DNA of 64,000 bases from Accumulibacter sp. Lineage in GTDB: Bacteria; Pseudomonadota; Gammaproteobacteria; Burkholderiales; Rhodocyclaceae. A program made the translations under genes and the position numbers. Position 1 is the first letter of the stretch. Each line of letters opens with the position of its first letter. The stretch covers positions 35,898 through 99,897 of the forward strand of contig JACKLX010000015.1 in the NCBI GenBank assembly GCA_024235695.1, in the 5' to 3' direction. Below, piece after piece: positions 37,426 through 63,413 of the stretch. Under the pieces are notes generated by a model that was not told where the DNA came from, made no database searches, and saw only the letters and a program-made list of their open reading frames with translations.

Positions 37426-37443
37426 CTGTCGGTTTTTCTTACA
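37426..37443 (+). promoter_or_regulatory. conserved PEP-CTERM upstream element, copy A
   Basis: CTGTCGGTTTTTCTTACA, one of four copies of CTGTCGG-N4-TYTTACA in the window. It ends 100 bp before the -24 box of a sigma-54 promoter, a distance suited to an enhancer-binding protein site. Confidence 0.65.
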
Positions 37444-37542
37444 CTTGTTTTCTGGATTGGCGATGCGCGGCCACCGAAAGATCATCGACAAGAAGTCCAT
37501 ATATCTGATTTAACGGGATTGGTTGTTTTTTTCGATGAGTTC

Positions 37543-37557
37543 TGGCACAGGGCTTGC
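37543..37557 (+). promoter_or_regulatory. sigma-54 promoter of the PEP-CTERM lectin gene
   Basis: TGGCACAGGGCTTGC matches the -24/-12 consensus (TGGCAC-N5-TTGC, GG-N10-GC) almost perfectly. It is about 120 bp upstream of the start codon. Confidence 0.75.
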
Positions 37558-37675
37558 TTGACAGGAAGTGCCTGGAGGATGGCCGTGGTTTCATTGGTGA
37601 ACCGGCTGCCCTTCGCTGCCTTGAGCGGCTTCCCTCGGATGGTTGGGATAGCTGGCTGACCCAGAAAGGACGATC

Positions 37676-38512
37676 ATGAAAAAGACCCTGTCGCAACTTG
37701 CAACCGCCGCTGCGCTGATGACCATGGCGACCTACGCCAGCGCGGCCGTCATCGACTACCCGGACTTCTCCAGCGTTGCCGGCTTGACGCTCAACAACGA
37801 CGCCGCGCAGGTCGGCAATGTCCTGCGCGTGACTCCCGCGACCTTCGGTCAGGCGGGTAGCGCCTTTTCGACGAGTACCGTCTCGCTGGCGGCCGATGCG
37901 TCGTTCAGCACCTTCTTCAAGTTCCGTTTTACCAACGCCGGTGGCTCTTGTGACGGCCAAGGTTGCGGTGCCGACGGTCTGGTCTTCGTCGTGCAAACCA
38001 ACAGCAACAACGTCGGTGGTGCTGGCGGCGGCATCGGTTATCTCGGGATCGGCAACAGCGTCGGTGTCGAGTTCGATACCTGGAACAACGGCAGTGTGGA
38101 CAACGGCAGCAGCAACCACGTCGGCATCGACGTCAATGGTGACATCGCGTCGGTCGTGCTGAGCGAAGTCACCGAGGCCGACATGAACGATGGCGACACC
38201 TGGAATGCCTGGGTCGACTACGACGGTGCCAGCACCCTGCTGGAAGTGCGGCTGACGCGTGCGGCGGCTCGTCCGGCGGCCGCCATGCTGTCGCTGACAC
38301 GCGACCTGGCGGCCGATCTCGGGACGCCGAACGCCTTTGTCGGCTTTACCTCGGGAACGGGTTCAGCTTTCGCCGACCACGACGTCCTGAGCTGGACGCT
38401 GGAGAACCGTTTTGCGCCGATCGGCGGCGGCCCGGTGCCGGAGCCCGCATCGCTGGCGCTCCTCGGTCTGGGTCTGGCCGGTCTTGGATTCGCTCGGCGC
38501 AGAAAAGCCTGA
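37676..38512 (+). CDS. PEP-CTERM-anchored legume-lectin-like surface protein
   Basis: A 278-residue secreted protein. Signal peptide MKKTLSQLATAAALMTMATYASA is followed by an L-type lectin-like beta-sandwich; DGLVFVVQ, GYLGIGNSVGVEFDTWNNG and NHVGID are the legume-lectin strand motifs with metal- and sugar-binding Asp/Asn. The C-terminus is a complete PEP-CTERM tail: VPEPASLALLGLGLAGLGFA then RRRK. Such tails are cut by exosortase at the surface, and the proteins are linked to exopolysaccharide and floc matrix. AGAAAGGACG precedes ATG 37676. It is monocistronic with its own terminator and a sigma-54 promoter. Confidence 0.9.
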   Translation: MKKTLSQLATAAALMTMATYASAAVIDYPDFSSVAGLTLNNDAAQVGNVLRVTPATFGQAGSAFSTSTVSLAADASFSTFFKFRFTNAGGSCDGQGCGADGLVFVVQTNSNNVGGAGGGIGYLGIGNSVGVEFDTWNNGSVDNGSSNHVGIDVNGDIASVVLSEVTEADMNDGDTWNAWVDYDGASTLLEVRLTRAAARPAAAMLSLTRDLAADLGTPNAFVGFTSGTGSAFADHDVLSWTLENRFAPIGGGPVPEPASLALLGLGLAGLGFARRRKA

Positions 38513-38533
38513 GTACGTCGCTGTTGAAGGAAG

Positions 38534-38558
38534 ACCCCGCCACGGCGGGGTTTTTTTT
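38534..38558 (+). terminator. rho-independent terminator of the PEP-CTERM lectin gene
   Basis: CCCCGC-CACG-GCGGGG followed by eight T, starting about 20 bases past the stop codon. Confidence 0.88.
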
Positions 38559-38728
38559 CGTGGTGCGAAACGGTGAGGGAGAGGGAGAGGGCGCCGGCGC
38601 TATTGACAGCGCTGGCGTCGGTCGCTCGGGCCTGCGCCTGGTGCCATCCGACGAGGCACTCCATCGGCATGCGGTGATTGCTGCAACCGCCACTCTCAGC
38701 CGACAGTCGCGAGTCCTCGCGAGAAAGT

Positions 38729-38750
38729 GGCGCCGCTCGCTCGCGGCGCC
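38729..38750. repeat. 8-bp perfect inverted repeat upstream of the BPSS1780-type gene
   Basis: GGCGCCGC and GCGGCGCC flank TCGCTC, 74 bp before the start codon. A -10-like TATAGT lies at 38762-38767. It may be an operator or an mRNA hairpin; function is unknown. Confidence 0.35.
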
Positions 38751-38823
38751 GATTCTGGGGTTATAGTGTGCGCCGCGTCGCCGGGCAACCCGTTTCCGGC
38801 ATTTCGGACCGCGTGAGGTAGCA

Positions 38824-39591
38824 ATGAACGTCGAGCAGAAAACCGTCGAGGTGCCCGTGGCGAGGGTCGATGACCACCGGCAAACGGTCACCGGCAATTT
38901 CGTTCCCGAAGGGCGGTGCCTGCCGGTCAGCCATGGCTACCAGTGGCTGCTGCGTGGCTGGCAGACCTTTCGCATGGCGCCGGCCACCTGGATGGGCATC
39001 GCCGTCGCCTTCATGGTCTTCACGCTGGTGATCAGCGCCATCCCTTTCGTCAATCTCGCCGTTAACCTCTTGATACCGGTGTTCATCGGCGGCATCAGCA
39101 TCGGCTGCAAAGCGATCGAGGACGGCCAAGACCTTCGCTTTACTCACCTGCTTGCCGGTTTCTCCAGTAACCCGGGCGGGCTGCTGCTGATCGGCCTGCT
39201 GTACCTGCTGGCGATGCTGCTGATCGCCGCGGTGGTCGGCGTGGTGAGCGCGCTGGGCGCCATGGTTGCCGGCTCGCGCTACGACGCCGCTTCCTTTCCA
39301 CTGCTTGCCCTGGGTTTCATGACCACCCTGCTGCTCTTCGTGCCGCTGGCGATGGCGATCTGGCTGGCGCCGCCGCTGGTGGTGTTTCACCGCTTGTCCG
39401 CCGCCCAGGCGGTCAAGACCAGTTTCTTCGCCTCGTGGCACAATTTTGCGCCGTTCTGTCTGTATGGCCTTCTGGTCGTGCTCGCCGCGGTGATCGCCAG
39501 CCTGCCGCTGCTGCTAGGCTGGCTGGTGGTGCTGCCGGTACTGTACGCTTCGCTGTACGCCTTTTATCGAGACGTCTTCTTCGAACAATGA
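38824..39591 (+). CDS. BPSS1780-family inner-membrane protein
   Basis: A 255-residue protein with about six hydrophobic segments. A soluble N-terminus is followed by HGYQWLLRGWQTFRMAPATW, the characteristic opening of this betaproteobacterial family of unknown function. Membrane segments cover residues of about 55-95, 115-155, 160-190 and 205-245. It starts at ATG 38824 with a modest GAGGTAG-like site. No partner is evident; the next gene, a MAPEG protein, lies 82 bp downstream on the same strand. Confidence 0.8.
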   Translation: MNVEQKTVEVPVARVDDHRQTVTGNFVPEGRCLPVSHGYQWLLRGWQTFRMAPATWMGIAVAFMVFTLVISAIPFVNLAVNLLIPVFIGGISIGCKAIEDGQDLRFTHLLAGFSSNPGGLLLIGLLYLLAMLLIAAVVGVVSALGAMVAGSRYDAASFPLLALGFMTTLLLFVPLAMAIWLAPPLVVFHRLSAAQAVKTSFFASWHNFAPFCLYGLLVVLAAVIASLPLLLGWLVVLPVLYASLYAFYRDVFFEQ

Positions 39592-39673
39592 ACGCCGGGG
39601 CGCTTGCCGCATTGCCGGCCGACCGGGTCCGGTTGGCCGCACCCCGACTGCAAACCAACTGTGGATCGACGCC

Positions 39674-40069
39674 ATGAACGCCTACCCCGGAGCCACCCTG
39701 TTGACCCTCGGCAGTTCGCTGCTACTGTTCGCCTGCGCCGCGTACGTCGGCCGTTGCCGGATGAAGTTCGGAATCGTGGCGCCGGCGACCAGCGGTCACC
39801 CGCAGTTCGAGATTGCCTACCGGATCCAGATGAACACGCTCGAAAACACCGTCGCCTTCCTGCCGGTGCTGTGGGTGTTCGCGCTCAACCTGTCGAGCCT
39901 GTGGGCGACCGTCTTCGGCAGCGGCTGGTTGCTGGCGCGAATCTGGTACGCGCTGGCCTACGCCCGGGATCCGAAGACGCGAAGCGGCGGCTTTGGCTTG
40001 TCGATGCTGTGCTTCGGAGCGCTCGGACTCGGTGGTGCCTGGGGTGTTGTCCGCGGGATGCTCGGCTGA
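39674..40069 (+). CDS. MAPEG-family membrane protein
   Basis: A 131-residue protein with four membrane segments. The segment FEIAYRIQMNTLENTVAFLP is the MAPEG core (conserved Arg/Asn/Glu in the second helix), followed by RIWYALAYARDP. The family comprises glutathione-dependent transferases and peroxidases of membranes, but bacterial members are mostly uncharacterised. Its stop lies 62 bp before the likely start of the ABC exporter gene, so the two may be co-transcribed. Confidence 0.85.
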   Translation: MNAYPGATLLTLGSSLLLFACAAYVGRCRMKFGIVAPATSGHPQFEIAYRIQMNTLENTVAFLPVLWVFALNLSSLWATVFGSGWLLARIWYALAYARDPKTRSGGFGLSMLCFGALGLGGAWGVVRGMLG

Positions 40070-40131
40070 ACCCGCCGCTTCCCCGCCCGCCGCTTGCGCC
40101 GACTGACGGCGCCGCTGCGGGCGTCGCGGGC

Positions 40132-41925
40132 GTGGCTGACGTCGACCAGCGGCGCCCCACGGCGCGCAGGCTGCGGCCGCTGCGCGACCTGCTGCCTTAC
40201 GTCGCGCCGTACGGCAGGCGGATCGTTGTCGCCCTGTTGCTGTTGCTGCTCGCCGCCTCGGCAACCTTGACGCTCCCCTATGCGGTGAAATTGCTGGTCG
40301 ATGGCGGCCTCGCCCAGCCCGCCGGCAGTGGCCTCGGCGAACGGATGCAGGCGATCCGCGAGCACTTCCTGCTGCTGTTCGCGGTCGCCGTCGTCCTCGG
40401 TCTGGCGACCGCCGCGCGCTTCTACATGGTCAGCTGGATCGGCGAGCGGGTGACCACCGATCTGCGCCAGGCGGTCTACGCGCATGTGCTGCGGCAGAGT
40501 CCGCAATTCTTCGAGACCCTGAAAACGGGCGAGGTGCTGTCGCGCCTGACCACCGACACGACGGTGATCCACAGCGCGGTCGGTTCGAGCATCAGCATGG
40601 GCCTGCGCAGCATCGTCCTGTTTGCTGGCGGACTGACCATGCTGGTCACCACGACGCCACGCCTGATGCTCACCGTTGCCGGGATCATCGTCCTCTTCGT
40701 CCTGCCGGCGGCGCTCATCGGTCGGCGTGTGCGCAAGCTGTCGCGCGCCAGCCAGGACCGCATCGCCGATACCAGCGGCATCGCCGGCGAGATCCTCAAC
40801 GCCATCCCGATCGTCCAGAGCTATACCCAGGAGCAGGCCGAGGCGGTACGCTTTTCGGCCGCCAACGAAAAGGCGTTCGCGACGTCGATTCGCCGCACCG
40901 GCACACGCTCGGCATTCACCGCATTCGTCATCATCGGCGTCTTCGGCTCCCTGCTTTACGGCCTGTACGGTGGCGTCCAGGCGGTCCTGGTCGGCGAGCT
41001 GAGCGCCGGTCAATTGAGCCAGACGGCCTTGTACGTGATGGTCGTCGCTGGCAGCGTCGCGGTGCTGGCCGAGGTCTGGGGCGACCTGTTGCGTGCCTCT
41101 GGGGCGACCGAGCGGCTGATGGAACTGCTGGACTCGCGTTCGCCGATCGACGAACCGCCGCTGCCGGTGATCCTGCCGGCGCCAGCCGGCGGCCTGCGCG
41201 TGGTCTTCGACAAGGTCCGTTTCGCCTACCCTGCGCGTCCCGAACAGGCCGTTCTGCAGGGCCTCGAGCTGACCATCGATACCGGCCAAACGGTCGCTCT
41301 GGTCGGGCCGTCGGGCGCCGGCAAGACGACCGTCTTCCAGTTGCTGCAACGCTTCTACGAGGTCAGCGAAGGCGCCATCCTGATCGATGGCATCGACCTG
41401 CGCGACGCGCGTCTGGCCGAACTGCGCGCGCGCATCGCGGTGGTGCCGCAGGAGGCGGTGATTTTCTCGGGCAGCATCGCCGACAACATCCGCTATGGCC
41501 GACCCGGCGCAAGCGATCAGGAAACGCGCGCCGCCGCCGCCGCTGCCTTCGTCGACGAATTCGTCCAGCGCCTGCCCGAGGGCTACGCCACCTTCGTCGG
41601 CGAGCGCGGCGTTCGCCTGTCGGGTGGGCAGCGCCAACGGATCGCCATCGCCCGGGCGATCCTCAAGGATGCGCCGCTGCTGTTGCTCGACGAAGCGACC
41701 AGCAGCCTCGACGCCGAGAGCGAGCGGGTCGTGCAGGCGGCGCTGGAGGCGGCGATGAGCGGCCGGACGACGATCGTCATCGCCCACCGCCTGGCGACCG
41801 TACAGCGTGCCGACCGGATCGTCGTGCTCGACCACGGCCAACTGATCGACGCTGGCACGCACCTGCAACTGGTCGAGCGCGGCGGTCTCTACGCGCGACT
41901 GGCAGCGCTGCAATTCGGCTTGTGA
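40132..41925 (+). CDS. ABC exporter half-transporter (MsbA/ABCB-like)
   Basis: About 597 residues from GTG 40132. The frame is open back to 39604, but that part overlaps the MAPEG gene in another frame and is not membrane-like; no ATG lies close to the first helix, so the start is uncertain. The N-terminal six-helix exporter domain (about residues 25-320) is joined to a nucleotide-binding domain with Walker A GPSGAGKT, Q-loop VVPQEAVIFSGS, signature RLSGGQRQR, Walker B LLLLDEATSSLD and H-loop IAHRL. It probably works as a homodimer exporting lipid, peptide or drug; the substrate is unknown. Confidence 0.9.
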   Translation: MADVDQRRPTARRLRPLRDLLPYVAPYGRRIVVALLLLLLAASATLTLPYAVKLLVDGGLAQPAGSGLGERMQAIREHFLLLFAVAVVLGLATAARFYMVSWIGERVTTDLRQAVYAHVLRQSPQFFETLKTGEVLSRLTTDTTVIHSAVGSSISMGLRSIVLFAGGLTMLVTTTPRLMLTVAGIIVLFVLPAALIGRRVRKLSRASQDRIADTSGIAGEILNAIPIVQSYTQEQAEAVRFSAANEKAFATSIRRTGTRSAFTAFVIIGVFGSLLYGLYGGVQAVLVGELSAGQLSQTALYVMVVAGSVAVLAEVWGDLLRASGATERLMELLDSRSPIDEPPLPVILPAPAGGLRVVFDKVRFAYPARPEQAVLQGLELTIDTGQTVALVGPSGAGKTTVFQLLQRFYEVSEGAILIDGIDLRDARLAELRARIAVVPQEAVIFSGSIADNIRYGRPGASDQETRAAAAAAFVDEFVQRLPEGYATFVGERGVRLSGGQRQRIAIARAILKDAPLLLLDEATSSLDAESERVVQAALEAAMSGRTTIVIAHRLATVQRADRIVVLDHGQLIDAGTHLQLVERGGLYARLAALQFGL

Positions 41926-41953
41926 GCGCCGTCCTGCGCGAACATCGTCTCCG

Positions 41954-43564
41954 TCAGCCGCGGTCGACGCTGATCGAGGAAACCAGCTCGCGTTCGTCGA
42001 GTTCGGTTTCGATGATGCGCAGCGTTTCGTCGTTGATCGCGTCGCTGGCGTGCAGCTCATGCAGGCGCTGGCGTTCGGCGCTGATCGCGGCGAGCCGCAG
42101 TCGTCGGCGCAGGGTGATGTGCGCTGCGCGTAGACGAGCGTGCTGGGGCTCGCCTTCGAGCAGTTCGAGCTTGCCCTGGTAGCGGCCGGCCAGCTGCCTG
42201 GCGAAGGCAAGGTCTTCCGGGTCGGCCAGCTCGCTCTCAGCGACGGTCACGGCAGCCAAGGCGGCGCGCGCGATTTCGGCGCGCGCGGCGTGCTCCTCGT
42301 GCAGGCTTTCTTCGCCGCTGCCGACTGCCAGTTTGCGGATCAGCCATGGCAGCGGCAGACCATTGAAGGCCAGCGTCAGGATGATTGTTGCTGCGGCGAG
42401 GAAGACGACCAGGTCACGTTCGGGGAAAGGCGTCCCGGCGGCGATCACTGCCGGCACCGAGAGCGCTGTCGCCAAGGTGATCGATCCGCGTACCGCCGCC
42501 CAGCTGACCAGCAACATCCGCCGGGGGTCGGGACCCGAGCTGCTGCCACTCCAACCCCAGCCCAGGCGGTATCGCAGATGTGCGGAGATCCACACCCAGG
42601 CGATACGGAGGACCATCAGCAGGGCCCACAAGACCAGCGCGTACCAGGCAAGATCGAGCGGCGCGTATTCGTCAACACTGGTCAACATGCGGCGCAATTG
42701 GAGACCGAGCAACACGAAGACCAGGCCGTTCAGCACGTAGGACAGCATCCGCCAGACCTCGCGGGCATGCTGGCGCGCGTCGGCGGTTAGTCCCTTGACT
42801 TCCTGGCCGCTGGCCCACAGCCCGGCCGCGACCACCGCAAGTATCCCCGAGACGTGCAGTGCCTCGGCGGCGAGGTATGCGCCATAGGGCATCAGCACGG
42901 TCAGCAGTGTCTGCAGGACGGGGTCACCGGCATGGAGGTGGATCAGGTGCTGCCGCAGTTCGCGTCCCAGCCATTCGAAGAAGATCCCGATGATGATGCC
43001 GCCGCCGGCCAGATGGACGAAGTTTCCGGCGACCGCGGTCGAGGAGAACAGCCCGGTGGCCGCGGCCGCCACGGCGAGCTTGAAGGCAACCAGCCCCGAG
43101 GCGTCGTTCAGCAGACTCTCGGCATTGACGATGAGCACGATCTTGGCCGGCAGGGGCAGTGTCTGGGTGGTGGCCACCGTCGCGACCGCGTCGGTCGGCG
43201 AGACGATGGCTCCGAGCGTGAAGGCGACGGCCAGGGGCATCGCCGGAATCAGCCAGTGCATCACGTAGCCGACCGCGACGACGGTCAGGACGACCAGTCC
43301 GAGAGCCAGCAGCAGAACCGGCTTGAGCGTGCTGACGAAGTCGCGGCGTGGCAATACCCACGCGTCGGCAAAAAGAATCGGCGGGATGAACAACAGCAGG
43401 AACAGTTCCGGATCGACGACGATGCCGTCGAGTCCGGGCACGAAGGAGGCCGCCACGCCGACCACCACCAGCAGGATCGGCAAGGGCAGCGGCGTCCAAT
43501 GCACGAGCGCACCGCCGACGGCAATGGCTAGCAGCAGCAGCAGGGTCAGTTCGACGACAGGCAT
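41954..43564 (-). CDS. CPA1-family Na+/H+ antiporter
   Basis: A 536-residue protein starting at ATG 43564 (MPVVELTLLLLLAI); the frame extending to 43786 has no start signal. There are about 12 hydrophobic segments; GAIVSPTDAVAT and NAESLLNDASGLVAFK are the ion-binding motifs of NhaP/NHE-type antiporters, the second with the essential ND. A cytoplasmic C-terminal tail of about 130 residues is rich in Glu/Arg and probably helical. Exchanges Na+ (or K+) for H+. It converges on the ABC exporter gene. Confidence 0.92.
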   Translation of the reverse strand: MPVVELTLLLLLAIAVGGALVHWTPLPLPILLVVVGVAASFVPGLDGIVVDPELFLLLFIPPILFADAWVLPRRDFVSTLKPVLLLALGLVVLTVVAVGYVMHWLIPAMPLAVAFTLGAIVSPTDAVATVATTQTLPLPAKIVLIVNAESLLNDASGLVAFKLAVAAAATGLFSSTAVAGNFVHLAGGGIIIGIFFEWLGRELRQHLIHLHAGDPVLQTLLTVLMPYGAYLAAEALHVSGILAVVAAGLWASGQEVKGLTADARQHAREVWRMLSYVLNGLVFVLLGLQLRRMLTSVDEYAPLDLAWYALVLWALLMVLRIAWVWISAHLRYRLGWGWSGSSSGPDPRRMLLVSWAAVRGSITLATALSVPAVIAAGTPFPERDLVVFLAAATIILTLAFNGLPLPWLIRKLAVGSGEESLHEEHAARAEIARAALAAVTVAESELADPEDLAFARQLAGRYQGKLELLEGEPQHARLRAAHITLRRRLRLAAISAERQRLHELHASDAINDETLRIIETELDERELVSSISVDRG

Positions 43565-43914
43565 GCGCGATTGTAGCGTATGGCCATGACGAATGCTGAA
43601 GTCTGGCCGCTGGCTGCGTGCTGGCCAATACCTGCTGCCGTCGGCTTTGCGGCCCGCGAAACGGCGGCGACGGTGACCATCGCCGATGACCGGCCAACCC
43701 TTGCGTCGCGACGGCGCTGCGGGTAGTGCGTCGGCGGCAGCGCCGCTGCTGCGATCCGGGGCAGGTGGACAGTGGGTGAACTTCAACGTTAGGGTCTGCT
43801 TCGGCGCAGCGAGCTACAATGGATGGCGTAGCGAGCCCGATTTCTCAAACCTGGTCGCCAGCGCCCTGTTCAGGGGAGCGCGCCAGGACACCGCAGCTGA
43901 CCGGCCGGACCCTC
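43565..43914. other. intergenic region between antiporter and beta-propeller genes
   Basis: The 350 bp separate divergent genes. A TACAAT hexamer at 43815-43820 could be a -10 box for the beta-propeller gene, but no -35 partner is seen. No hairpins or repeats of note. Confidence 0.5.
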
Positions 43915-44814
43915 ATGCCCTTCACCTCGACGCCCTCGTTCGCCCGGCGCGGGCCGACCGCAAGGAAACTGCGGCTCGTCGCGTTGGCCTTCGCCGGCAC
44001 GCTGGCCGGCGCGTTGGGCTTTTTTTCCTGGCAACATCTCTTTCCGGTGACCGCCGCAGAAGGCTGGTCGTACAGCGTTCTGGTCGACGCCGTACCGTCG
44101 GTCAGCGCGCTGGTCAGGGACACCCAGGGCGTCCTCTACATCACGCAGGAACTGAAGGACGAACGCGGCAGCGTGTTCACGCTGGCTGCCGACGGTAGCC
44201 GCAAGGTGGTGATTGACGGCCTGTCCAAGCCGGACGGACTGGCGGCGCTACTGGATGGCGTGGTCGTCAGCCAGGAAGCCGGCGATCATCCTCTGCTGTG
44301 GCTGCATGGCGGCAAACTCGAAGCGCTTTTTTCGGGGACCAACGTCGAAGGGGTCGCCAGTGACGGTCGCGTCCTGTTTGTCATCGAAGATCGCGCCGGC
44401 GACGGCCGCCTGCTGCGTTTCGACCCCCAGACCCGCGAAGTGAGCGTGCTGCGCGACGGGCTGAGCGCCGGCGAGGGCGTCGCGGTATGCCCGAACGGCG
44501 AACTGTTCTATGCCGAGAAGGGCAAGGGGTCGGTCAAGCGCTGGCGAGCCGGCGGGCTCGACGAAGTGCTTGTCGGTGGCCTCAACGCGCCGGGTTTCCT
44601 GATGTGCGACGATGAAGGACTATGGATCACCGAAGACGCCACGCATCAGGCGCGGCTGTTGCTGCTCGACAGCCGTGGCAGCTTGCAGGTCCTGCTGCGT
44701 CATCTGCGCTCGGCGCAAACGGTGCTGCCGCTGGCGCCGGGGCATCTGCTGGTGGCCGAGCAGGGGCGTGGGCGAGTCCTGGAGGTCAGGCGCGTGCGCA
44801 AACCGTCGAGCTGA
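43915..44814 (+). CDS. membrane-anchored SMP-30/NHL-like beta-propeller protein
   Basis: A 299-residue protein. After a basic start one hydrophobic segment (LRLVALAFAGTLAGALGFFS) acts as anchor or uncleaved signal. The rest is a repeated beta-strand pattern with ALVRDTQGVLYITQE, DGLSKPDGLAAL, VEGVASDGRVLFVIED, AGEGVAVCPNGELFYAE and GGLNAPGFLMCDDEGLWITE, the blades of an SMP-30/gluconolactonase-like propeller. ATG 43915 is chosen because the anchor follows directly; the open frame from 43819 lacks signals. Likely periplasmic, with unknown ligand or lactonase activity. Confidence 0.75.
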   Translation: MPFTSTPSFARRGPTARKLRLVALAFAGTLAGALGFFSWQHLFPVTAAEGWSYSVLVDAVPSVSALVRDTQGVLYITQELKDERGSVFTLAADGSRKVVIDGLSKPDGLAALLDGVVVSQEAGDHPLLWLHGGKLEALFSGTNVEGVASDGRVLFVIEDRAGDGRLLRFDPQTREVSVLRDGLSAGEGVAVCPNGELFYAEKGKGSVKRWRAGGLDEVLVGGLNAPGFLMCDDEGLWITEDATHQARLLLLDSRGSLQVLLRHLRSAQTVLPLAPGHLLVAEQGRGRVLEVRRVRKPSS

Positions 44815-45006
44815 CGGTCATCAACAGCGACCAGACGTCCCGGATCATCAACGCCACGGCCGTCTCCGCTGTACGCCTCGCGTCGCCCGACGGACCGACC
44901 GATTGCGTGGCCCGGAAGAAAGCCGCGGGCGGCGGCGAGTCGTCGCTTGCCGTCAATGTTTTCGCGATAAGCTATTCACCGTCAGCCATTGCCAGCGGAG
45001 AAAGAC

Positions 45007-45684
45007 ATGAACGACGCCAGCGGCAGCGACTGCTGCCAGCTTCTCGGTCTCTACGATTCGCCGTTCACTCGGCGCGTGGCGATCACCCTGACGCTCTACG
45101 GAATGCCCTTCGAGCATCTTTCGCTGTCGGTCTTTCGGCAGATGGACGCCATGCGTCCGCTCAATCCGCTGTTCAAGGTGCCGATGCTGACGCTGCCCGA
45201 CGGCGAGAAGCTCTACGAGAGCGCCTATCTGCTCGACTACCTCGACGAACTCGCCGCCGACCGCGGTCTCGAGCCATTGACGCCGCGTGCCGGGCCGGCG
45301 CGGCGACGGGTCCTGCAGACGGTGGCGCTGGCGATCGTTGCCACCGAAAAAGCGGTGGCCATCGAATACGAGCGCAAGCGTCCGCTTGAACGGCAGTGGC
45401 CGGACTGGACCAGCCGCCTGCGTGGCCAGATGCGGCAGGCGCTGGCGATGCTCGAAGAGCAACTGGCCACGGTCGCGCGAAACGCCGGCGGCGCGTCCGC
45501 CAGCGACCACTTCCTGGTCGGCGGCCGCCTGACGCAGGCCGACATCAGCACGGCCGTCGGTATCGGCTTCGTCCGCTACGTCCTGCCGCACGAATGGCCG
45601 GCCGACGAGTACCCGGCGCTGGCGGCGCTGGCGGCCAGACTCGAAGCCAGCGACGCTTTCCGGGCGGTGCCGATCGACCAGTGA
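45007..45684 (+). CDS. glutathione S-transferase family protein
   Basis: A 225-residue GST distinct from the one at 36.7 kb. The thioredoxin-like domain contains LYDSPFTRRVAITLTLYGMP with Ser as likely catalytic residue, PLFKVPMLTLPDGEKLYES with cis-Pro and the GSH-binding ES. The C-terminal domain has GGRLTQADISTAVGIGF. ATG 45007 follows GCGGAGAAAGAC. Substrate unknown; flanked by unrelated genes. Confidence 0.9.
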   Translation: MNDASGSDCCQLLGLYDSPFTRRVAITLTLYGMPFEHLSLSVFRQMDAMRPLNPLFKVPMLTLPDGEKLYESAYLLDYLDELAADRGLEPLTPRAGPARRRVLQTVALAIVATEKAVAIEYERKRPLERQWPDWTSRLRGQMRQALAMLEEQLATVARNAGGASASDHFLVGGRLTQADISTAVGIGFVRYVLPHEWPADEYPALAALAARLEASDAFRAVPIDQ

Positions 45685-45706
45685 CGGCCGGCGCCGCGCT
45701 GAGCGG

Positions 45707-47125: not shown

Positions 47126-47132
47126 CGCCTTT

Positions 47133-47193
47133 ACCGATACAGTTGCCCGTGCTTGTAACCGGTACAGTTGCACGCTCGTTCAACTGTACCGGT
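47133..47193. promoter_or_regulatory. MocR operator, two direct and one inverted half-site
   Basis: ACCGATACAGTTG (47133-47145) and ACCGGTACAGTTG (47158-47170) are direct repeats 25 bp apart. CAACTGTACCGGT (47181-47193) is the perfect inverse of the second. Direct-plus-inverted half-sites on helical spacing are typical of MocR binding. Confidence 0.75.
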
Positions 47194-47215
47194 CACAATT
47201 ATGCATTTTTGTGAC
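47192..47215. repeat. 7-bp inverted repeat in the mocR/DUF2917 spacer
   Basis: GTCACAA (47192-47198) and TTGTGAC (47209-47215) flank 10 bases, the same spacer length as the adjacent MocR palindrome. It may bind a second regulator acting on the DUF2917 gene. Confidence 0.45.
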
Positions 47216-47285
47216 TGTTTTATCAATGCCTGCTCGCGTACACTGCTCTCATCGAAACAGGCAAGCGACGAAAGGAGAGACGGCC

Positions 47286-47645
47286 ATGAACTTCGAGCTC
47301 TGCAACAGCGAACTATGTCTTGCCGACAATGCGCCGATTCGCCTGACGTCGGCCAGCGGCGTGCGCATCGTCTGCACGGCCGGCAGGGTCTGGCTGACCG
47401 TCGAAGGCGAGGCCGGCGATTTCTTCCTGGCGGCCGGCGATAGCCATCTCGTCAGTGGCCGCGGCTTGGCCTTGCTGGAAGCGATCGGTAGTGGGCGAGT
47501 ACGCTTCGAGAATGCCGCCAGCGCGGTCCACGGGCGCATCCTGGCGACCTGGCAAAGCGGCTGGCAGGCGGTGCGCGCCCTGGCGCTGCTCGACCGGCGC
47601 CCGGCAAGCCTGCTGCGGGTCTGTTCGCCGCAAGTCGGCGGCTAG
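47286..47645 (+). CDS. DUF2917 domain-containing protein
   Basis: A 119-residue soluble protein. The segment RIVCTAGRVWLTVEGEAGDF followed by FLAAGDSH is the signature of DUF2917, a small beta-rich, cupin-like domain of unknown function. Strong AAAGGAGA precedes ATG 47286. It is transcribed away from the MocR-type regulator across a 160-bp spacer with several operators and is presumably its target. Confidence 0.82.
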   Translation: MNFELCNSELCLADNAPIRLTSASGVRIVCTAGRVWLTVEGEAGDFFLAAGDSHLVSGRGLALLEAIGSGRVRFENAASAVHGRILATWQSGWQAVRALALLDRRPASLLRVCSPQVGG

Positions 47646-56648: not shown

Positions 56649-56710
56649 CGGCGACTTCGCGACGACACGATCGGCTTGGGTCTCGCCTGCGGAACGGGCG
56701 GTAGCCGGCG

Positions 56711-57724
56711 CTACTCGTCGCTGACCCGCAGCAGCAGCTTGCCGGTGTTGGCACCGGTGAACAGCTTGTGCAGTGCCGCAGGCGCCGATTCCAGCCCGTC
56801 GGAGACGTCGAGGCGGTACTTCAGGCGCCCGGCGAGGTGCCAGGCGATCAGCTTTTCCGCCGCCTCCTGGGCGCGATCCAGGTAGTCGAGGACGATGAAG
56901 CCCTGCATCCGGCCGCGCTGCATCAGTAGCTGACCGAGGTTGGACGGCCCTGGCTCGGGAGCGCTGGCGTTGTACTGCGAGATCAGGCCGCACAGCGCGA
57001 TCCGGGCGCCGCGATTGATCCGCGCCAGCACGGCGTCCAGCGTGCGTCCGCCGACGTTCTCGAAGTCGACGTCGATCCCCTCCGGGCAGGCGCGCGCCAG
57101 CCCCGCGGCGAGATCCTCGGCCTTGTAGTCGATGACCGCGTCGGCGCCGAGTTCCTCGCTCAGCCAGCGGCACTTTTCGGCACCGCCAGCGATCGCCACG
57201 ACGCGCAGGCCGAGGACCTTGCCGATCTGCACCGCCAGCGAGCCAACCGCGCCGGCCGCCGCCGAAACCACCAGCGTTTCGCCGGCTCTCGCCTGCGCCA
57301 CGTCGGTCAGTCCGAAGTACGCGGTCAGACCGATATGGCCGAGCAGTCCGAAGTGGGCGCTCAGCGGCAGCGGTATCGGCGGCAGCCGGGTCAACGCCCT
57401 GGCCGGGCTGAGGCAGTAGCGCTGCCAGCCGAGCATGCCCTGGACGACGTCGCCGACGCGCAGGCTGGCGTCGCGCGACTCCTCGACGACGCCGATGCCG
57501 ATGCCGCGCATCACCTCGCCCAGGGCGAGCTTTGGCAGGTAGCTGTCGGCGTCGTTCATCCAGATGCGGTTGGTCGGGTCGATCGACAACCAGATCGTGC
57601 GCACCCTGACCTGGCCGTCGGCCAGCTCGGGCAGTGCCGTCTCGCGCCACTCGAAGTTCGCCGCGCTGGCCAGGCCAGTGGGCCTGGTCGCCAGATGCCA
57701 GGCGGTATTGATCGTCGCGCTCAT
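56711..57724 (-). CDS. zinc-independent MDR-family NADP-dependent oxidoreductase
   Basis: A 337-residue medium-chain reductase of the prostaglandin-reductase/curcumin-reductase type. LSIDPTNRIWMNDADSYLP is the family's substrate-domain block, HIGLTAYFGLTDVAQARAGE leads into the NADP site VVSAAAGAVGSLAVQIGKVLG, and VDFENVGGRTLDAVLARI follows. No structural-zinc Cys cluster. ATG 57724 has CAGGAGA upstream. Reduces activated C=C bonds of unknown substrates. It converges on the kinase gene. Confidence 0.92.
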   Translation of the reverse strand: MSATINTAWHLATRPTGLASAANFEWRETALPELADGQVRVRTIWLSIDPTNRIWMNDADSYLPKLALGEVMRGIGIGVVEESRDASLRVGDVVQGMLGWQRYCLSPARALTRLPPIPLPLSAHFGLLGHIGLTAYFGLTDVAQARAGETLVVSAAAGAVGSLAVQIGKVLGLRVVAIAGGAEKCRWLSEELGADAVIDYKAEDLAAGLARACPEGIDVDFENVGGRTLDAVLARINRGARIALCGLISQYNASAPEPGPSNLGQLLMQRGRMQGFIVLDYLDRAQEAAEKLIAWHLAGRLKYRLDVSDGLESAPAALHKLFTGANTGKLLLRVSDE

Positions 57725-57851
57725 GATTTCTCCTGTTTCTCGTCGGATTGCCAGCATGCCTCACGCGGCATGCCCGGCGCAATCTTTCGTCGCCTGTTGC
57801 CGCCCGCCCAATGGCGGCGTCGGCGTGCTACCGGGCCCGGCCTGGCGCCGG

Positions 57852-57869
57852 CTGTCGGGAATTTTTACA
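57852..57869 (+). promoter_or_regulatory. conserved PEP-CTERM upstream element, copy B
   Basis: CTGTCGGGAATTTTTACA, matching CTGTCGG-N4-TYTTACA. It ends 98 bp before the -24 box of the sigma-54 promoter. Confidence 0.65.
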
Positions 57870-57966
57870 CGTGGTCTCGCGAGGTCCTTGCAAGAGTCCC
57901 GACGAATGAATCCAGGCCAATGAATTAACAGCGATAATGTCTGTTGCGTGGCAAGTTTTCCGGCCG

Positions 57967-57981
57967 TGGCACGGATAATGC
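57967..57981 (+). promoter_or_regulatory. sigma-54 promoter of the second PEP-CTERM gene
   Basis: TGGCACGGATAATGC keeps TGGCACG and GG-N10-GC exactly. It lies about 120 bp before the start codon, as for the lectin gene. Confidence 0.7.
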
Positions 57982-58100
57982 TTGATGCTGCACAGACGGA
58001 ATCGTCAGCATCCCCCGCTACACCTGACAAACGGCGTCCCGAAGATGATCGCCTCGTTGCAGGTCCGGCAAGTTCAGCAAGTTCAGCAAGGAGTGTCCAC

Positions 58101-58805
58101 ATGAAAAAAATTGCTATCGCGGTCATTGCCGCCCTCTCGATCGGCGGCTCGGTGCAAGCCGCGCAGATCTTTTCCACCAGCTATGACATGCCCAATGGCG
58201 ATGGTCAGGCGAGCGGCGGGTCTTACAACTACTGGGACAAGGAATACAACGGTGCCGGTTCCACGACGACCGACGGCGCGGCCCTGTCGGGTGGGCAGGG
58301 CAACCTCACCGATGGCGTGATTGCAAGCGATTACTGGTACAACGTGGAGAACGCCGCAGGCACCGGCCCCTATGTCGGCTGGTATGGGCCACGCACGCTG
58401 AATCCACTGCTCACTTTCAATTTCTCGGGCAGTCCGGTCATCGACCGGGTGGTCTTTTATATTGACGACAGTCAATTTGGAGGTGTGTATGCGCCGGCGG
58501 CGATCTGGATCGACGGCGTCAATAGCTCCTACACCCCGCCGGCAAACCCTTCCTTGCTGACGGTGGACCTGACCGGCTTGAACCTCACCGGCAACCAGCA
58601 TTCGATTCAGTTCTTCCAGGAGTTTTCCGGCAACAGCTGGACCTTCGTCAGCGAGATCGAATTCTTCGGCAATAGCGGGCGCGTGCCCGAGCCGGCGAGT
58701 CTGGCGCTGGTGCTGACTGGCCTTGGCCTGTTTGGCGCCGCCGCTCTGCGCCGCCGCCAGACGATGTCGTGCGAGTCGCTTCAGGATCGTTGCAGCGGCG
58801 CCTGA
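58101..58805 (+). CDS. PEP-CTERM-anchored secreted protein
   Basis: A 234-residue protein: signal peptide MKKIAIAVIAALSIGGSVQA, then a beta-rich domain of about 165 residues (VIDRVVFYIDDSQFGGVYAP, HSIQFFQEFSGNSWTFVSEI) resembling carbohydrate-binding or discoidin-like sandwiches. The sorting tail is VPEPASLALVLTGLGLFGAA then LRRRQ. Unusually, 14 further residues with two Cys follow the basic cluster, where most PEP-CTERM tails end. ATG 58101 has AAGGAG upstream. Expected to be processed by an exosortase encoded elsewhere. Confidence 0.85.
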   Translation: MKKIAIAVIAALSIGGSVQAAQIFSTSYDMPNGDGQASGGSYNYWDKEYNGAGSTTTDGAALSGGQGNLTDGVIASDYWYNVENAAGTGPYVGWYGPRTLNPLLTFNFSGSPVIDRVVFYIDDSQFGGVYAPAAIWIDGVNSSYTPPANPSLLTVDLTGLNLTGNQHSIQFFQEFSGNSWTFVSEIEFFGNSGRVPEPASLALVLTGLGLFGAAALRRRQTMSCESLQDRCSGA

Positions 58806-59094
58806 CGCCGGCGTGACCGCGGCCCCGGGCGGTTGCCGCCGGTAGTCCTCCCGGCATGCCGCCTGGTACCTGTCTGTCGCTGTCCGGTCCCGGGTCGTCG
58901 CGACCAACGACGGCGGGCGGCGATTCCTTCCCCTGCATCGCGAAGCAGGGTCGTCCTGCGCTCTGGGCGCGGTTTGCTCGCCCTGCGGTATCCGGGTAAT
59001 TTCCCTGTCGGCGTCGGCGATCGACGCGCTGCGTCGTCCGCTGGTCAGCAGCCGCTATACTGCTCGTTCCGGAAGCCCAGTCAGGAGGCCGATC
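58806..59094. other. spacer after the second PEP-CTERM gene
   Basis: GC-rich, without recognisable terminator. A -10-like TATACT lies at 59056-59061, but there is no good -35. It would serve the small frame starting at GTG 59095. Confidence 0.4.
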
Positions 59095-59337
59095 GTGGCA
59101 GAACCTGTGCGCACCCGGCCGCCGCTGTTCGCAGTTCGCCAGGCTCGAGGAACAGCGCGCATCGGTGGCGTCAGCAGCGCGCGCGCGGCGCCGGCGCAAG
59201 GCCGTCGGTCACCTTGTCGGCTCTTGCCTGCCGGCTGCTGCTTCTGCTGCCATTTCCACTTCGCCCAACGCTCGCAGCGGATCGCACGCGCCTGCCGCGC
59301 CGCTGGCGGTGCGCACGCTCGGGCTGGCCCGGCGTGA
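59095..59337 (+). CDS. possible 80-residue ORF, doubtful
   Basis: GTG 59095 is preceded by CAGGAGG at good spacing and by a TATACT box. Its TGA overlaps the lipoprotein ATG (TGATG), a coupling geometry. However, the product (MAEPVRTRPPLFAVRQARG and an Arg/Ala/Cys-rich rest) resembles no family and has the composition of random GC-rich DNA. It could be a leader ORF or the decayed start of another gene. Confidence 0.25.
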   Translation: MAEPVRTRPPLFAVRQARGTARIGGVSSARAAPAQGRRSPCRLLPAGCCFCCHFHFAQRSQRIARACRAAGGAHARAGPA

Positions 59338-60041
59338 TGCGCTGGCTGCCGGTATTGCTGGCCTTGCTGGTCGTCGCCTGCGCCACGCGTCTGGGCAGGG
59401 ACGGCCGCAGCGAGTCGACCGTCGACCTCAAGTATCTCGCCAAGACCGAGGTCGACCGCATCGCCGATACCGATCGTACCGAGGTGGTCGGCAGCTTGAT
59501 GCTGATCGCCGACAAGCTCTACAAGCGCAACCCGAAGGAGTGGAAAAAGGCCGGCCTGAGCAGTCGCGAGGCCGCGCTGGAGCGTTTGCGACAGCGTCGC
59601 CAACGCAGTCTGCCGGAACTCGGTGGATTGCGCGAAGGGCAGGCCGCGGCGCTGGCCTTCAGCGATAGCTATACCGGCGACCGCGTCGCGGCGCTGATGT
59701 TCGGCCTGCTGACGATGGTCGACGCGGCCTTCGAGTACAAGGAGGAGTTCTACATTCTCGACGGCCTCAACGAGACGAAGCTCTTCAACTGCGCGCGCAA
59801 CATGGACGTCGCGGTCTGGAAGCTGGGTCACGACCGCGACCCGGCGGGGGAACTCTACCTGCTCTCGAACGCCATCGACGGTAACGGCCGCAACCTGTCC
59901 TTCGAGCGCGAGTTCGGCCGTGCGATGGGTCTGCTCGACCTGATGGCGCAGGTGGTGGCCGATCGCAACGGGCGCGGTTTCTCGCGTTTGAGCCAGGCGG
60001 TGGTGACCACCATCTTCCTGCCGGTCGGCCTGGTGAAGTAG
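59337..60041 (+). CDS. putative lipoprotein of unknown function
   Basis: A 234-residue protein with a lipoprotein signal, MRWLPVLLALLVVAC, giving a lipobox Cys15 after VVA. The mature part is mostly helical and charged (EVDRIADTDRTEVVGSLMLI, LYKRNPKEWKK, REGQAAALAFSDSYTGDRVA, LFNCARNMDVAVWKLGHDRD). I do not recognise a named domain. ATG 59337 is chosen because the lipoprotein signal starts there; the frame is open upstream to 58833 without signal. It converges on the chemoreceptor gene across 200 bp with no clear terminator. Confidence 0.7.
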   Translation: MRWLPVLLALLVVACATRLGRDGRSESTVDLKYLAKTEVDRIADTDRTEVVGSLMLIADKLYKRNPKEWKKAGLSSREAALERLRQRRQRSLPELGGLREGQAAALAFSDSYTGDRVAALMFGLLTMVDAAFEYKEEFYILDGLNETKLFNCARNMDVAVWKLGHDRDPAGELYLLSNAIDGNGRNLSFEREFGRAMGLLDLMAQVVADRNGRGFSRLSQAVVTTIFLPVGLVK

Positions 60042-60245
60042 AGGGCCAGCGTCGAGCGGCCGGCGCCGAGCAGTGGCTGGCGTCGGCAAGGCGCGACGCG
60101 GTGTTTGGCGCAGCCTGGCGCTGCCACACGCCGGGCGTGAAGTCGCCGGCCGTTGCCAGGCGGGTGAAGGATCTTGCCGGTTGCGGCAAGCGCGCTGGAA
60201 ACCGTTTTGGCGACCGCTGGCGCATGCAGCCGCGGTTCGCGAAGC

Positions 60246-61886
60246 TCAGACCTTGAAGTAGGAAACTGCGGCCTGCAGCCGGCCGGCCAGCCCCTTCAGC
60301 TGCTCGGCGGCCTCGGCGTTGCTGCGTGTTGCGGCATCGCTTTCTTCGGTCATCGAAGCGATGTTCTGCACGTGCCCGGCGATTTCGGTGGCGGCGACCG
60401 CCTGTTCCCGGGTGGCGTTGGCCACTTCGCGCGCCCTGGCCAGCGAATCCTCGGCGTGGCGCTGGATTTCGTCGAGCACGCCGGTCGCCTGTACGGCCAG
60501 TTGCTGTCCCTTGCTCACCCGCGGTCCGGCGCTCTGCATCGCCACCACCGCCTCGCCGGTATCGCCCTGGATCGTCGCCACCGTCTCGCTGATCTGGGCC
60601 GTTGCCTTCCTCGTTCGTTCGGCAAGCTTGCGCACTTCGTCGGCGACGACCGCGAAGCCGCGCCCCTGTTCGCCGGCGCGCGCCGCCTCGATGGCGGCGT
60701 TCAACGCCAGCAAGTTGGTCTGGTCGGCGATCTCCTTGATGACGTTGCTGATCGTGCCGATTTCCTGCGACCGACCGACCAGGGCATCAATCCGGCCGGC
60801 GGAATCGTTCACCGAAGCGGCGATGCTTTCGATTTCGCCGGCCGCCAATCGGACGACGCCGGCGCCCTGATTGGCCAGCTCTGCGGTCTTGCGGGAGTTG
60901 GCCTCGGTGAGCCGGGCGATCTCGGAGACCTCGCTGATGCTGGTCGTCAGTTGCTCGATCGACGCGGCGGTGGCGGCGCTGGAATCTGCCTGCTGCCGCA
61001 CCGCGGCGCTGATTTCACTGGCCGCCAGCGCGAGCTCGCCGGATTCCCTGGCCAGCGATTCGGTGCCCTGGTTGATGTCGCGAACGACGCCATGCAGTCT
61101 GCCTTGCATCGTCGCCAGCGCGCCGAGCAGGTTACCGGGAAGCTTGCTGTGCGTGCTGATCTGCTGGGTCAGGTTGCCTTCGGCAAACTGCTCGACCTGC
61201 GCCGCCGCCGCCGCCGGTTCGCCGCCGAGCTGTTGCTGGACGCTGCGGTTGATGTTCCAGCCGAAAACGCCCAGCACGACGCCGAGCAACAGCACGAAGG
61301 CAATGCTCTGGCCGGCGCTGCGCCAGAACGCGGCGTCCACGTCCTCGATATACACGCCGGTGGCGACCCACCAGCCCCAGGGCGCAAAGACCTTGGCGTA
61401 GGCGATCTTGGCGATCGGCTTGTCGGAACCGGGCTTGGCGAAGGCGTAATCCATGCTTGCCTCGCCGTCGCGCTTGAGCAGGTCCAGCCAATCCTTGATG
61501 TAGGCCTTGCCGGTCGGATCCCTGGTGTCGAGCGTGTTCTTTCCCTCGCGTTCGGGGCGGGTGCCGTGCATCATCGTCGTGCCGCTCAAGTCGTAGATGA
61601 ACAGGTAGTCGTCTTCGTTGAAGCGGCTCTTGCGCAGTGCGTCCCTGGCCATGTGCTGCGCTTCGTCCATCGTCAGCCTGCCCGCTTGCTGCAGGTCGTA
61701 CTGGTGCTGCAGGACGCCCATCGCGCTATTGACCACGGCGCGGATCGCCAGGCGCTTCTCGGCCAGCACCTGCTGGCGCAGTTCCAACACCGAATGGGCT
61801 CCCAGGGCAAGCAGGCCGAGCAGCATGCTGGCGAGCAGTGCATAAAGGCGAGTGGTGAGCGTCAGTTTGCGCAGCAATTCGAGCAT
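60246..61886 (-). CDS. methyl-accepting chemotaxis protein with single Cache domain
   Basis: A 546-residue receptor. TM1 (about residues 13-33), a periplasmic sCache_2 domain (about 35-190; [35 protein letters not shown]), TM2 (about 192-212), a HAMP-like linker, and the signalling domain with the hairpin tip [20 protein letters not shown] and [13 protein letters not shown] follow. sCache_2 domains usually bind small organic acids. No che genes are nearby, so this is an orphan receptor. ATG at 61886 lies 85 bp from the EamA gene on the same strand. Confidence 0.94.
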
Positions 61887-61971
61887 CAGTGTCTCTCCCG
61901 CTTGTTGTTCAGGGGTCGCCGACCAGCGTGAGAACGGCTTGTCGACATCATCGGCCGAAAACCGGAATTCT

Positions 61972-62847
61972 TTACCGCTGGCGGTTGCCCGCGATGCCCG
62001 GCGGGTCGGCCGGCGGTGTCCGCGAAAGGCCTGTCGCCGCCAGGCCGGAAGCGATGATCAGTCCGGTCGCCAGCCACCACCAGCCATCGTGCGTTTCATC
62101 CCACAGCGCGATGCCGAAGACGCTGGCGAAGACCACCGTGCTGTACGCCAGGGCAGCCGCGGCCAGTGTCCGGCTTCTGGCGTAGGCGCGGGTCATCGCC
62201 AGTTGGGCGGCGGTGGCGAAGGCGGCGACGCCGAGCAACAGCGCGCCGCTGCGCAGGTCCACCGGATGGCTTTCGGAAAACAGCAGCCAGACGCCGGCGC
62301 CGATCGAAGACAACAGCCCGAAATAGAAGACCGTGCGCGTTTCCGGCTCGCCCCGCGCGCCCAGTTCGCGAATGCTGAAGTAGGCCAACGCGGCCAGCGC
62401 ACCGGAGAGTAGTCCGAGCAGGCCGCCCATCCACTGGTCGGCGTGCAAGGTCGGTCTGAGCAACAGCGCGACGCCGCCCAGACCCAGGGCCAGTGCGCCG
62501 ACGGTACCGGCGCTCAGGCGCAGGCCGCCGAGCGCCAGGTAGAGCGCCAGGAAGATCGCCGAGGTGTAGTTGAGCGTCACCGCCGTGGCCAGCGGCAGCA
62601 GGGTGATCGCCGAGAAGTAGCTGATCACCGCTGCGAAGCCGAAGGCGCCGCGGCTGAACTGCCAGCGCCAATGCGGCGTCCGCAGCGCGACGCCGCGCAG
62701 CCTGACCAGCGCCAGGACCAGCGGCAACGAGAGGACGCTGCGGTAGAAGACGATCTCGACCGCCGAGTGGCTGGCCGCGACCAGCTTGACGCAGACCCCC
62801 ATGCAGGCGAACAGGAAACTGGCCAGGACCATCCAGAGTGCTTGCAT
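61972..62847 (-). CDS. EamA/DMT-family transporter
   Basis: A 291-residue protein with ten predicted helices in two EamA repeats ([20 protein letters not shown] and [20 protein letters not shown] begin the halves). Typical of drug/metabolite exporters of the RhaT/YdcZ type; the substrate is unknown. ATG 62847 is favoured over TTG 62862, both with weak ribosome sites. Confidence 0.88.
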
Positions 62848-63079
62848 GGCGGTGCCGGGCAAGAGCGAAGCGTCGCATTCTATCCGAAGCGCGCCAGGGA
62901 CAGTGCTTGCCGTCGAGTTGCTGCCGGGCTCTGGCGACCGTCGACAGTGCGTCGTACCGAGTCATCGAGGCTGCCTGCAGGCGACAGGCCTGAAGCCTGT
63001 GAGTGACGGCAAGTCTGGCTTGCCCCAGCCAAGGCGACGCCGCGGCAGGGACCGTCGTTTTCATATCCGGGCGTGCCGG

Positions 63080-63097
63080 CTGTCGGTAAGTCTTACA
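63080..63097 (+). promoter_or_regulatory. conserved PEP-CTERM upstream element, copy C1
   Basis: CTGTCGGTAAGTCTTACA. With the next base (G) it shows dyad character, CTGT...ACAG and GTAAG...CTTAC. It lies 214 bp upstream of copy C2. Confidence 0.6.
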
Positions 63098-63103
63098 GTC
63101 AAT

Positions 63104-63128
63104 CGGTCGCGGTCGTTCACCGCGACCG
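63104..63128. repeat. 10-bp perfect inverted repeat beside element C1
   Basis: CGGTCGCGGT and ACCGCGACCG flank CGTTC. It has no T-run, so it is more likely an operator or structural element than a terminator. Confidence 0.5.
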
Positions 63129-63293
63129 GACATCCTTGCCGTTGGCGGTGGCGGCTCGTGCCTGGCAGCGGAAAGCGCTCCGGGCCTCGGGATGGCGGGC
63201 TGCGCGCCGGCGAGTGGCGGGCCTGGCGTGCCCGCGCATGGCGCGCGCAAGCCGCCGCAGCCCTTCTCATTTTTCGGCGACTTGCCCACTCAA

Positions 63294-63311
63294 CTGTCGG
63301 AAAATTTTACA
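63294..63311 (+). promoter_or_regulatory. conserved PEP-CTERM upstream element, copy C2
   Basis: CTGTCGGAAAATTTTACA, followed by G so that CTGT...ACAG is again symmetric. It ends 88 bp before the sigma-54 -24 box. Confidence 0.65.
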
Positions 63312-63398
63312 GTGTCCGCCTTGCGGTGCGCGTTGGGCACTTTCATCTTGCTCCCAACCGACTGTTTTGTAGCTGATTATTTCTATTTTATCAATGCC

Positions 63399-63413
63399 TG
63401 GCTCGATTCTTGC
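63399..63413 (+). promoter_or_regulatory. sigma-54 promoter of the right-edge surface-protein gene
   Basis: TGGCTCGATTCTTGC fits GG-N10-GC with TTGC intact; one mismatch in TGGCAC. It is about 150 bp before the start codon. Confidence 0.65.

Follow-up and report, generated by a model that had tools for sequence, protein, structure and literature searches.

The genome of a sludge bacterium, a Candidatus Accumulibacter species, is available as a 3.83-Mb draft in which a 64,000-nt stretch of DNA (hereafter the window) closes contig C15. Three surface-protein genes scattered over the window lie downstream of copies of an 18-bp element, CTGTCGG-N4-TYTTACA, and of sigma-54 promoters. The element has been described before: Haft et al. 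2006 published it as 'motif 1' of PEP-CTERM genes and predicted PrsR as its binder. We consider it highly probable that it is the enhancer box of the PrsK/PrsR system and that, together with an integration host factor (IHF) hinge, arms of whole helical turns and a sigma-54 promoter, it switches on dispersed PEP-CTERM genes. What appears to be new is the geometry. The distance from box to promoter is quantised near 52, 63, 74, 85 and 97 bp, a step of about 11.3 bp, and, with a confidence only slightly lower, we propose that PrsR promoters of the Gammaproteobacteria share a previously undescribed layout: box, IHF hinge in either orientation and sigma-54 promoter, joined by arms of approximately 33+11a and 20+11b bp (a and b being whole turns). 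The DNA itself shows the box and its promoter, the IHF-like element and the quantised distances, as well as the regulator genes and the co-occurrence of the box with PrsR. A first-pass annotation of the window recognised the element and its promoters; helical quantisation and the IHF-like element were both missed.

The box and its promoters in the window

The 18-mer occurs exactly at 37426, 57852, 63080 and 63294, always on the + strand, just as first listed, and is absent from all 100 dinucleotide shuffles of the window. Genome-wide there are 10 exact copies and none of a reversed control; allowing two mismatches raises the count to 40, against 18 in the control. Elsewhere in the genome the first C is variable (G, T or A) and the G at position 7 may be A. 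The 18-mer stands in position and sequence, but the essential box is the 17-mer TGTCRR-N5-YTTACA, which finds 30 sites genome-wide against one for the reversed pattern. Boxes, promoters and genes in the window are as follows; the spacer is counted from the end of the box to the T of TGG.

37427..37443, + strand: PrsR box (Haft motif 1) of target 1; the 18-mer starts at 37426
37543..37558, + strand: sigma-54 -24/-12 promoter of target 1, TGGCACAGGGCTTGC, exact TGGC-N7-TTGC, spacer 99
37676..38512, + strand: target 1, a 278-aa PEP-CTERM protein with a legume-lectin domain
57853..57869, + strand: PrsR box of target 2
57967..57982, + strand: sigma-54 promoter of target 2, TGGCACGGATAATGC, differing from TGGC-N7-TTGC at one position, spacer 97
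58101..58805, + strand: target 2, a 234-aa PEP-CTERM protein with a discoidin-like (DS-like) domain
63081..63097, + strand: additional PrsR box of target 3, lying 214 bp upstream of the proximal one
63295..63311, + strand: proximal PrsR box of target 3
63399..63414, + strand: sigma-54 promoter of target 3, TGGCTCGATTCTTGC, exact TGGC-N7-TTGC, spacer 87
63562..64000, + strand: target 3, 5′ part of a gene for a large secreted protein, truncated where the contig stops

The spacers agree with the 88-100 bp reported in the first-pass annotation (there counted to GG) and sit at the long end of the range. From the GC of the -12 element to the ATG (37676, 58101 and 63562) there are 118, 119 and 148 bases; the first-pass annotation gave about 120-150 bp. 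The copy at 63080 is an exact box, as claimed, but an extra one, lacking a convincing promoter of its own. On its own the promoter pattern is common (133 matches with one mismatch in the window, 83 expected), so the evidence rests on the pairing of box and promoter.

Target 1 matches Pfam PF00139 (119 bits), Pfam PEP-CTERM (35 bits) and TIGR02595 (32.5 bits); target 2 matches Pfam PF21114 (28.6 bits), Pfam PEP-CTERM (26.4 bits) and TIGR02595 (29.2 bits). Both had been called PEP-CTERM genes and the third a large secreted protein. The secreted nature of target 3 holds, but its exclusion from the PEP-CTERM class was probably a mistake: it may well belong there too, because its full-length paralogue, a 2877-aa protein encoded on contig C8 with which it shares 43% identity across 115 aligned positions, ends in a Pfam PEP-CTERM match of 25.0 bits (cut-off 20.7). 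With TIGR02595 the paralogue reaches 14.3 bits, below the cut-off of 16.

Distances between box and promoter are quantised

A strong -24/-12 element (score at least 23) lies beside 27 of the 30 boxes of the genome; L088, L090 and L096, for which no clear promoter was found, were left out of the spacer analysis. Because the combined search pattern accepted every gap between 41 and 101 bp, no phase was favoured. The 27 spacers range from 41 to 99 bp and fall into groups at 41, 52, 64, 75, 86 and 98. In a Rayleigh scan R reached 0.90 at a period of 11.4 bp, a value matched by none of 20,000 samples from a smoothed null.

The same periodicity is found beyond this genome. Among the matches listed for seven genomes of the same genus, R was 0.78 at 11.15 bp (122 rows, three of which list a box again under an alternative promoter; rows from G015 and G000 left out). 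Among those listed for 56 genomes of other families (136 rows, G000 left out) it was 0.67 at 11.35 bp, where the null maximum in 5000 samples was 0.31; drawing one row per genome gave R=0.63. Across a selected set of 206 spacers the peaks have means of 52.0, 63.2, 74.0, 85.5 and 97.3 bp, with a slope of 11.28 bp. Only 2 of these 206 fall in the troughs, a count that is flattered because the 100 hand-chosen stretches behind it hold 103 of the 136 class rows and, of the 33 left out, about 11 are off-peak. A fairer figure is 5 of the 128 class spacers of at least 48 bp, among the matches listed, lying within 2 bp of a trough centre. Phasing at 11.2 bp is similar whatever the target: R is 0.77 for PEP signals, 0.83 for VPxPA-like signals and 0.84 for others. 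A single fixed spacer was rejected, the distances being quantised.

These data bear on the simplest alternative, that the copies of the 18-mer are dispersed repeats, or arose by chance, and have no regulatory role. The motif is indeed short and degenerate, and one of its 30 copies (C20:4253) lies in a long open frame without a convincing promoter; against this stand the strong promoter after 27 of the 30 boxes and the phasing of the spacers. Furthermore, in six Accumulibacter genomes that share one intergenic promoter, the best-conserved upstream blocks are the box, an IHF-like block and the -24/-12 element. We regard this alternative as hardly credible, and a repeat or chance origin was rejected on the shuffles (0 of 100), the reversed control (30 versus 1) and the class-wide phasing.

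An IHF-like element in the spacer

Expectation maximisation (EM), run without positional information on the 206 spacers (of 243 records, those with a promoter score of at least 23 and a spacer of at least 48 bp), returned the motif TAAnnnnTTGWTTTWA with a log-likelihood of 539, compared with 90-110 in 8 dinucleotide shuffles. Its reverse complement, TWAAAWCAAnnnnTTA, fits the IHF consensus WATCARNNNNTTR with the A-tract on the left; passages of PMC9519438 and PMC8421141 give this consensus with an upstream A-tract. The element scores at least 5 in 174 of the 206 spacers, in orientations numbering 108 and 66, so an IHF consensus lies between enhancer and promoter in most spacers, though not in all.

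The two orientations start at different positions, yet superimpose when a single axis is set at offset 12 within the 16-mer, and both place this axis 20 bp from the -24 element. The offset was itself chosen to superimpose the orientations; in the Accumulibacter training set it is 2.5 from the other end. Distances from box to axis pile up at 33, 43-44 and 54-55 bp, with a few at 64-66 bp; those from axis to -24 do so at 19-21 and 30-32 bp, with 42 bp once (target 2 of the window). The five main combinations of steps account for 80, 26, 24, 16 and 8 of the 174. In the window the elements are:

37498..37513, + strand: IHF-like element of target 1, CATATATCTGATTTAA, score 5.8 (weak); the axis lies 66 bp downstream of the box and 33 bp upstream of -24
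57913..57928, + strand: IHF-like element of target 2, CAGGCCAATGAATTAA, score 8.4; the axis lies 55 bp downstream of the box and 42 bp upstream of -24
63355..63370, + strand: IHF-like element of target 3, CAACCGACTGTTTTGT, score 9.2; the axis lies 55 bp downstream of the box and 32 bp upstream of -24

A matrix trained on Accumulibacter alone found a match in 72 of 100 spacers from other families, 58 of the 72 being in phase on both arms; random placement gave a mean of 7.5 and a maximum of 17. Pieces taken 200-300 nt upstream of the same boxes contained a match in 13 of 130 cases, compared with 88 of 131 beside the boxes, and in-phase matches numbered 2 and 71, respectively. For boxes without a good promoter only 3 of 14 matches were in phase. 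The matrix for the upstream control derives from positions that EM had fitted to all sets, which makes the Accumulibacter-trained test the cleaner hold-out; in both tests the phase-count windows were set after the distribution of arm distances had been viewed.

The main rival reading is that the element is AT-rich DNA with an intrinsic curve, or is bound by HU or some other protein, with the phasing arising from loop mechanics alone. That the motif is degenerate and AT-rich, that binding by IHF is a prediction, and that 32 of the 206 spacers hold no match of score 5 or more all speak for such a reading. The motif found de novo has, on the other hand, the two-part layout of an IHF site with four free bases, its two orientations share an axis, and matches are rarer in the control pieces. 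One of the kinks made by IHF presumably falls at the ApA step of the consensus. With the kinks 9 bp apart, as stated in PMC8421141, their midpoint would then coincide with the axis at offset 12. Curvature or another protein thus seems an unlikely explanation for the element in general, although at some promoters, where no IHF-like site can be recognised, the curvature of the DNA itself may do the work.

PrsR and the box occur together

The genome encodes PrsR (740.6 bits, cut-off 502.6; none of 14 control genomes has a match over the cut-off) in one cluster on contig C20 with prsK (845 bits), prsT (908 bits) and epsB2 (EpsB2, 516 bits). The protein is 55-59% identical, over the best segment, to PrsR of four named Accumulibacter records. 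RpoN (469 bits) is also present, as is IHF, on the evidence of ihfA (IHF-alpha, 150.5 bits, over the cut-off).

Among 276 genomes of Gammaproteobacteria, the box with its promoter was found in 80 and PrsR over the cut-off in 81, with both in 67 (Fisher p 1.5e-36). The mean count of box plus promoter is 2.30 per genome with PrsR and 0.10 without. It is conceivable that some other NtrC-type activator binds the box in the genome studied here, which has eight further matches to the PrsR model (280-371 bits), and 13 genomes carry box and promoter without PrsR over the cut-off. The association across the 276 genomes, the difference in mean counts and the co-occurrence in 13 species given in the relevant section of PMC1569441 make this very unlikely. 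The first-pass annotation had taken the 18-mer for the enhancer of a sigma-54 activator, probably PrsR. Both the genome-wide sites and the co-occurrence agree with that proposal, which is right in outline; it is not new, having been made by Haft et al. 2006.

The predicted regulon in the genome

The 30 sites are not randomly placed (30 versus 1 in the reversed control): 19 precede PEP-CTERM genes, 18 of them over the TIGR02595 cut-off plus the gene at C8:124159, which encodes the 2877-aa protein recognised by Pfam PEP-CTERM. Counted from the genes, a box is present for 19 of the 29 PEP-CTERM genes over the TIGR02595 cut-off, including one whose box, TGTCGC, falls outside the 30 consensus sites. 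Among the sites checked for coding overlap, those other than C20:4253 lie outside coding sequence, as in the description by Haft et al. The other 11 sites include both boxes of target 3, and those listed here:

C1:205328: gene for a serralysin-like RTX metalloprotease
C6:10801: giant open frame of at least 6262 aa
C11:28401: 534-aa frame with no family match
C19:6043: LuxR-type regulator, 489 aa (L287:3432-5060)
C19:25085: 116-aa protein with a Tat-like signal, judged by eye (L288:286-3254)
C11:85715 and C14:104205: no clear gene
C16:4769: no clear gene of any kind; conserved between species
C20:4253: inside a long open frame, no convincing promoter; probably a chance match

Several of these sites precede other secreted or regulatory genes, which supports the earlier suggestion that the element defines a surface-matrix regulon. 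Since one PrsR promoter lies upstream of a LuxR-type regulator, the regulon may have a second tier. Among 102 strong box promoters in other families (L099-L198), 39 precede proteins with classical PEP signals and 20 proteins with VPxPA-type C-terminal signals (identified by regular expression), and PrsR therefore seems to serve the VPxPA sorting class as well; the remainder are 33 others, one xEP-like, eight that run off and one with no frame.

Some individual loci deserve mention. The promoter at C1:205328 has the shortest spacer of the genome (41 bp); the metalloprotease downstream (L280:329-3466) scores 160 bits, below the NCBIfam cut-off of 500, has cadherin-like domains and is a non-PEP member. 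Downstream of the 116-aa protein with the Tat-like signal is a gene for HprK-related kinase A (TIGR04352, 360 bits), and boxes in two other families (L168 and L197) likewise stand upstream of small proteins with Tat-like signals. At C14:104205 (L285:306-950) a well-formed PrsR promoter is followed by a Shine-Dalgarno sequence, a start codon and a short frame with no clear product: possibly a decayed target.

At C16:4769 (L286:3770-4070) a PrsR box, an IHF-like block and a sigma-54 promoter stand upstream of a stretch of ∼190-230 nt common to 6 of the 28 genus genomes searched (relatives L294-L298). The stretch carries AGCGATCGGGA, exact in four of the six, and GCAAAGGAGGAGG, present in five. 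Its 3′ end has a hairpin and a T-rich tail in the five aligned, with some pairs changed on both sides. A terminator scan of these loci gave a weak result (one found, 0.6 in shuffles), and Rfam returned no match on two loci with the candidate small RNA. We consider the stretch a candidate PrsR-driven small RNA or leader peptide.

A model for PrsR promoters

PrsR, as an NtrC-type activator, would bind the 17-bp box TGT-N11-ACA, which has the same outer spacing as the NtrC site. DNA shorter than 100 bp is too stiff for free looping; with spacers of this length, contact between PrsR and polymerase would be made possible by a bend at IHF. In our model IHF binds the AT-rich site in the spacer, bends the DNA sharply and so carries PrsR, facing the right side of the helix, to the RNA polymerase that waits with sigma-54 at -24/-12; the ATPase of PrsR would then open the polymerase complex, and many dispersed PEP-CTERM surface-protein genes would be switched on together. 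If the DNA is folded at a hinge, each arm should tolerate only whole helical turns, and spacers would change in steps of about 11.3 bp. Binding by PrsR, binding and bending by IHF, and activation are here predicted from sequence.

A number of observations weigh against the model. Phasing at 11.4 bp is weaker in two of the seven genus genomes, with R of 0.60 (G010) and 0.62 (G002). The period of the second arm has its class optimum at 12.95 bp, with R of 0.78 at 11; it is poorly determined because most second arms are 20 bp. An IHF-like match is missing from the 32 spacers noted above, and that of target 1 is weak. The IHF consensus, used alone, is strong in 51 of 126 cases at -32, against 2-22 of 126 when it is placed at ten other positions; the peak is clear yet of modest height, for which reason the position-free motif and the held-out test were used instead. 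Besides the 13 genomes with box and promoter only, 14 of the 276 have PrsR only. Finally, 10 of the 29 PEP-CTERM genes have no box (nine judged from the tested upstream stretch, which is short for some, and a tenth, on C9, with no 17-mer site nearby), so that PrsR is not the sole control; and because the TIGR02595 search exceeds its cut-off in 2 of 14 control genomes, a few of the 29 may be false.

The geometry turns a vague spacer of 'about 63 bp' into a sequence rule that predicts functional PrsR promoters, and names IHF as a probable partner in the making of extracellular matrix by floc- and granule-forming bacteria such as Accumulibacter. The twist tolerance of the fold that joins activator and polymerase has, to our knowledge, been studied so far mainly on single engineered promoters; more than 200 natural promoters now offer a data set on that tolerance in living cells. 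Should the model prove true, nature would have recorded in them, across a whole class, the helical repeat (about 11.3 bp) that an activating DNA fold has in vivo, and IHF would be a global co-regulator of the PEP-CTERM surface matrix.

Comparison with known systems

The system closest to ours is that of Haft et al. 2006 (PMC1569441), whose section on the site describes a 17-nt motif 1 ending in TTTACA with a sigma-54 motif 2 downstream, at a mean spacing of 62.8 bp (standard deviation 10.6, range 32-92). There the site is reported at 99 of 167 proteobacterial PEP-CTERM genes, with occasional repeats and a large intergenic region; PrsR, PrsK and PrsT co-occur with the motif, and PrsR is the predicted binder. 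The box studied here fits that description of motif 1, has its sigma-54 motif downstream and is accompanied by prsK-prsR-prsT. In contrast, the section on the site describes neither an IHF site nor helical quantisation. Two spacers of the window (97 and 99) exceed its maximum of 92, although motif edges may be counted differently.

For pepA of Aquincola tertiaricarbonis RN12, the relevant passages of PMC9850573 report a mapped -24/-12 element, rpoN1-dependent transcription and a predicted upstream enhancer. The likeness lies in the RpoN-type promoter with an upstream enhancer; those passages say that regulation needs more experiments and do not mention IHF. The orp promoter of D. vulgaris is reported as an IHF-assisted sigma-54 promoter (PMC3897727). 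In the open-access literature, titles and the starts of abstracts showed no link between PEP-CTERM and integration host factor, and at mostly title and abstract level we found no earlier record of quantised PrsR spacing or of an IHF hinge. As far as that literature shows, the geometry of the box around a probable IHF hinge appears to be undescribed.

At nifH, Pu and other promoters an IHF bend lies between activator site and promoter, and activity depends on helical phase. The IHF-assisted sigma-54 cases known to us are single promoters. Here, in contrast, separately phased arms are seen class-wide, at promoters that all belong to one activator.

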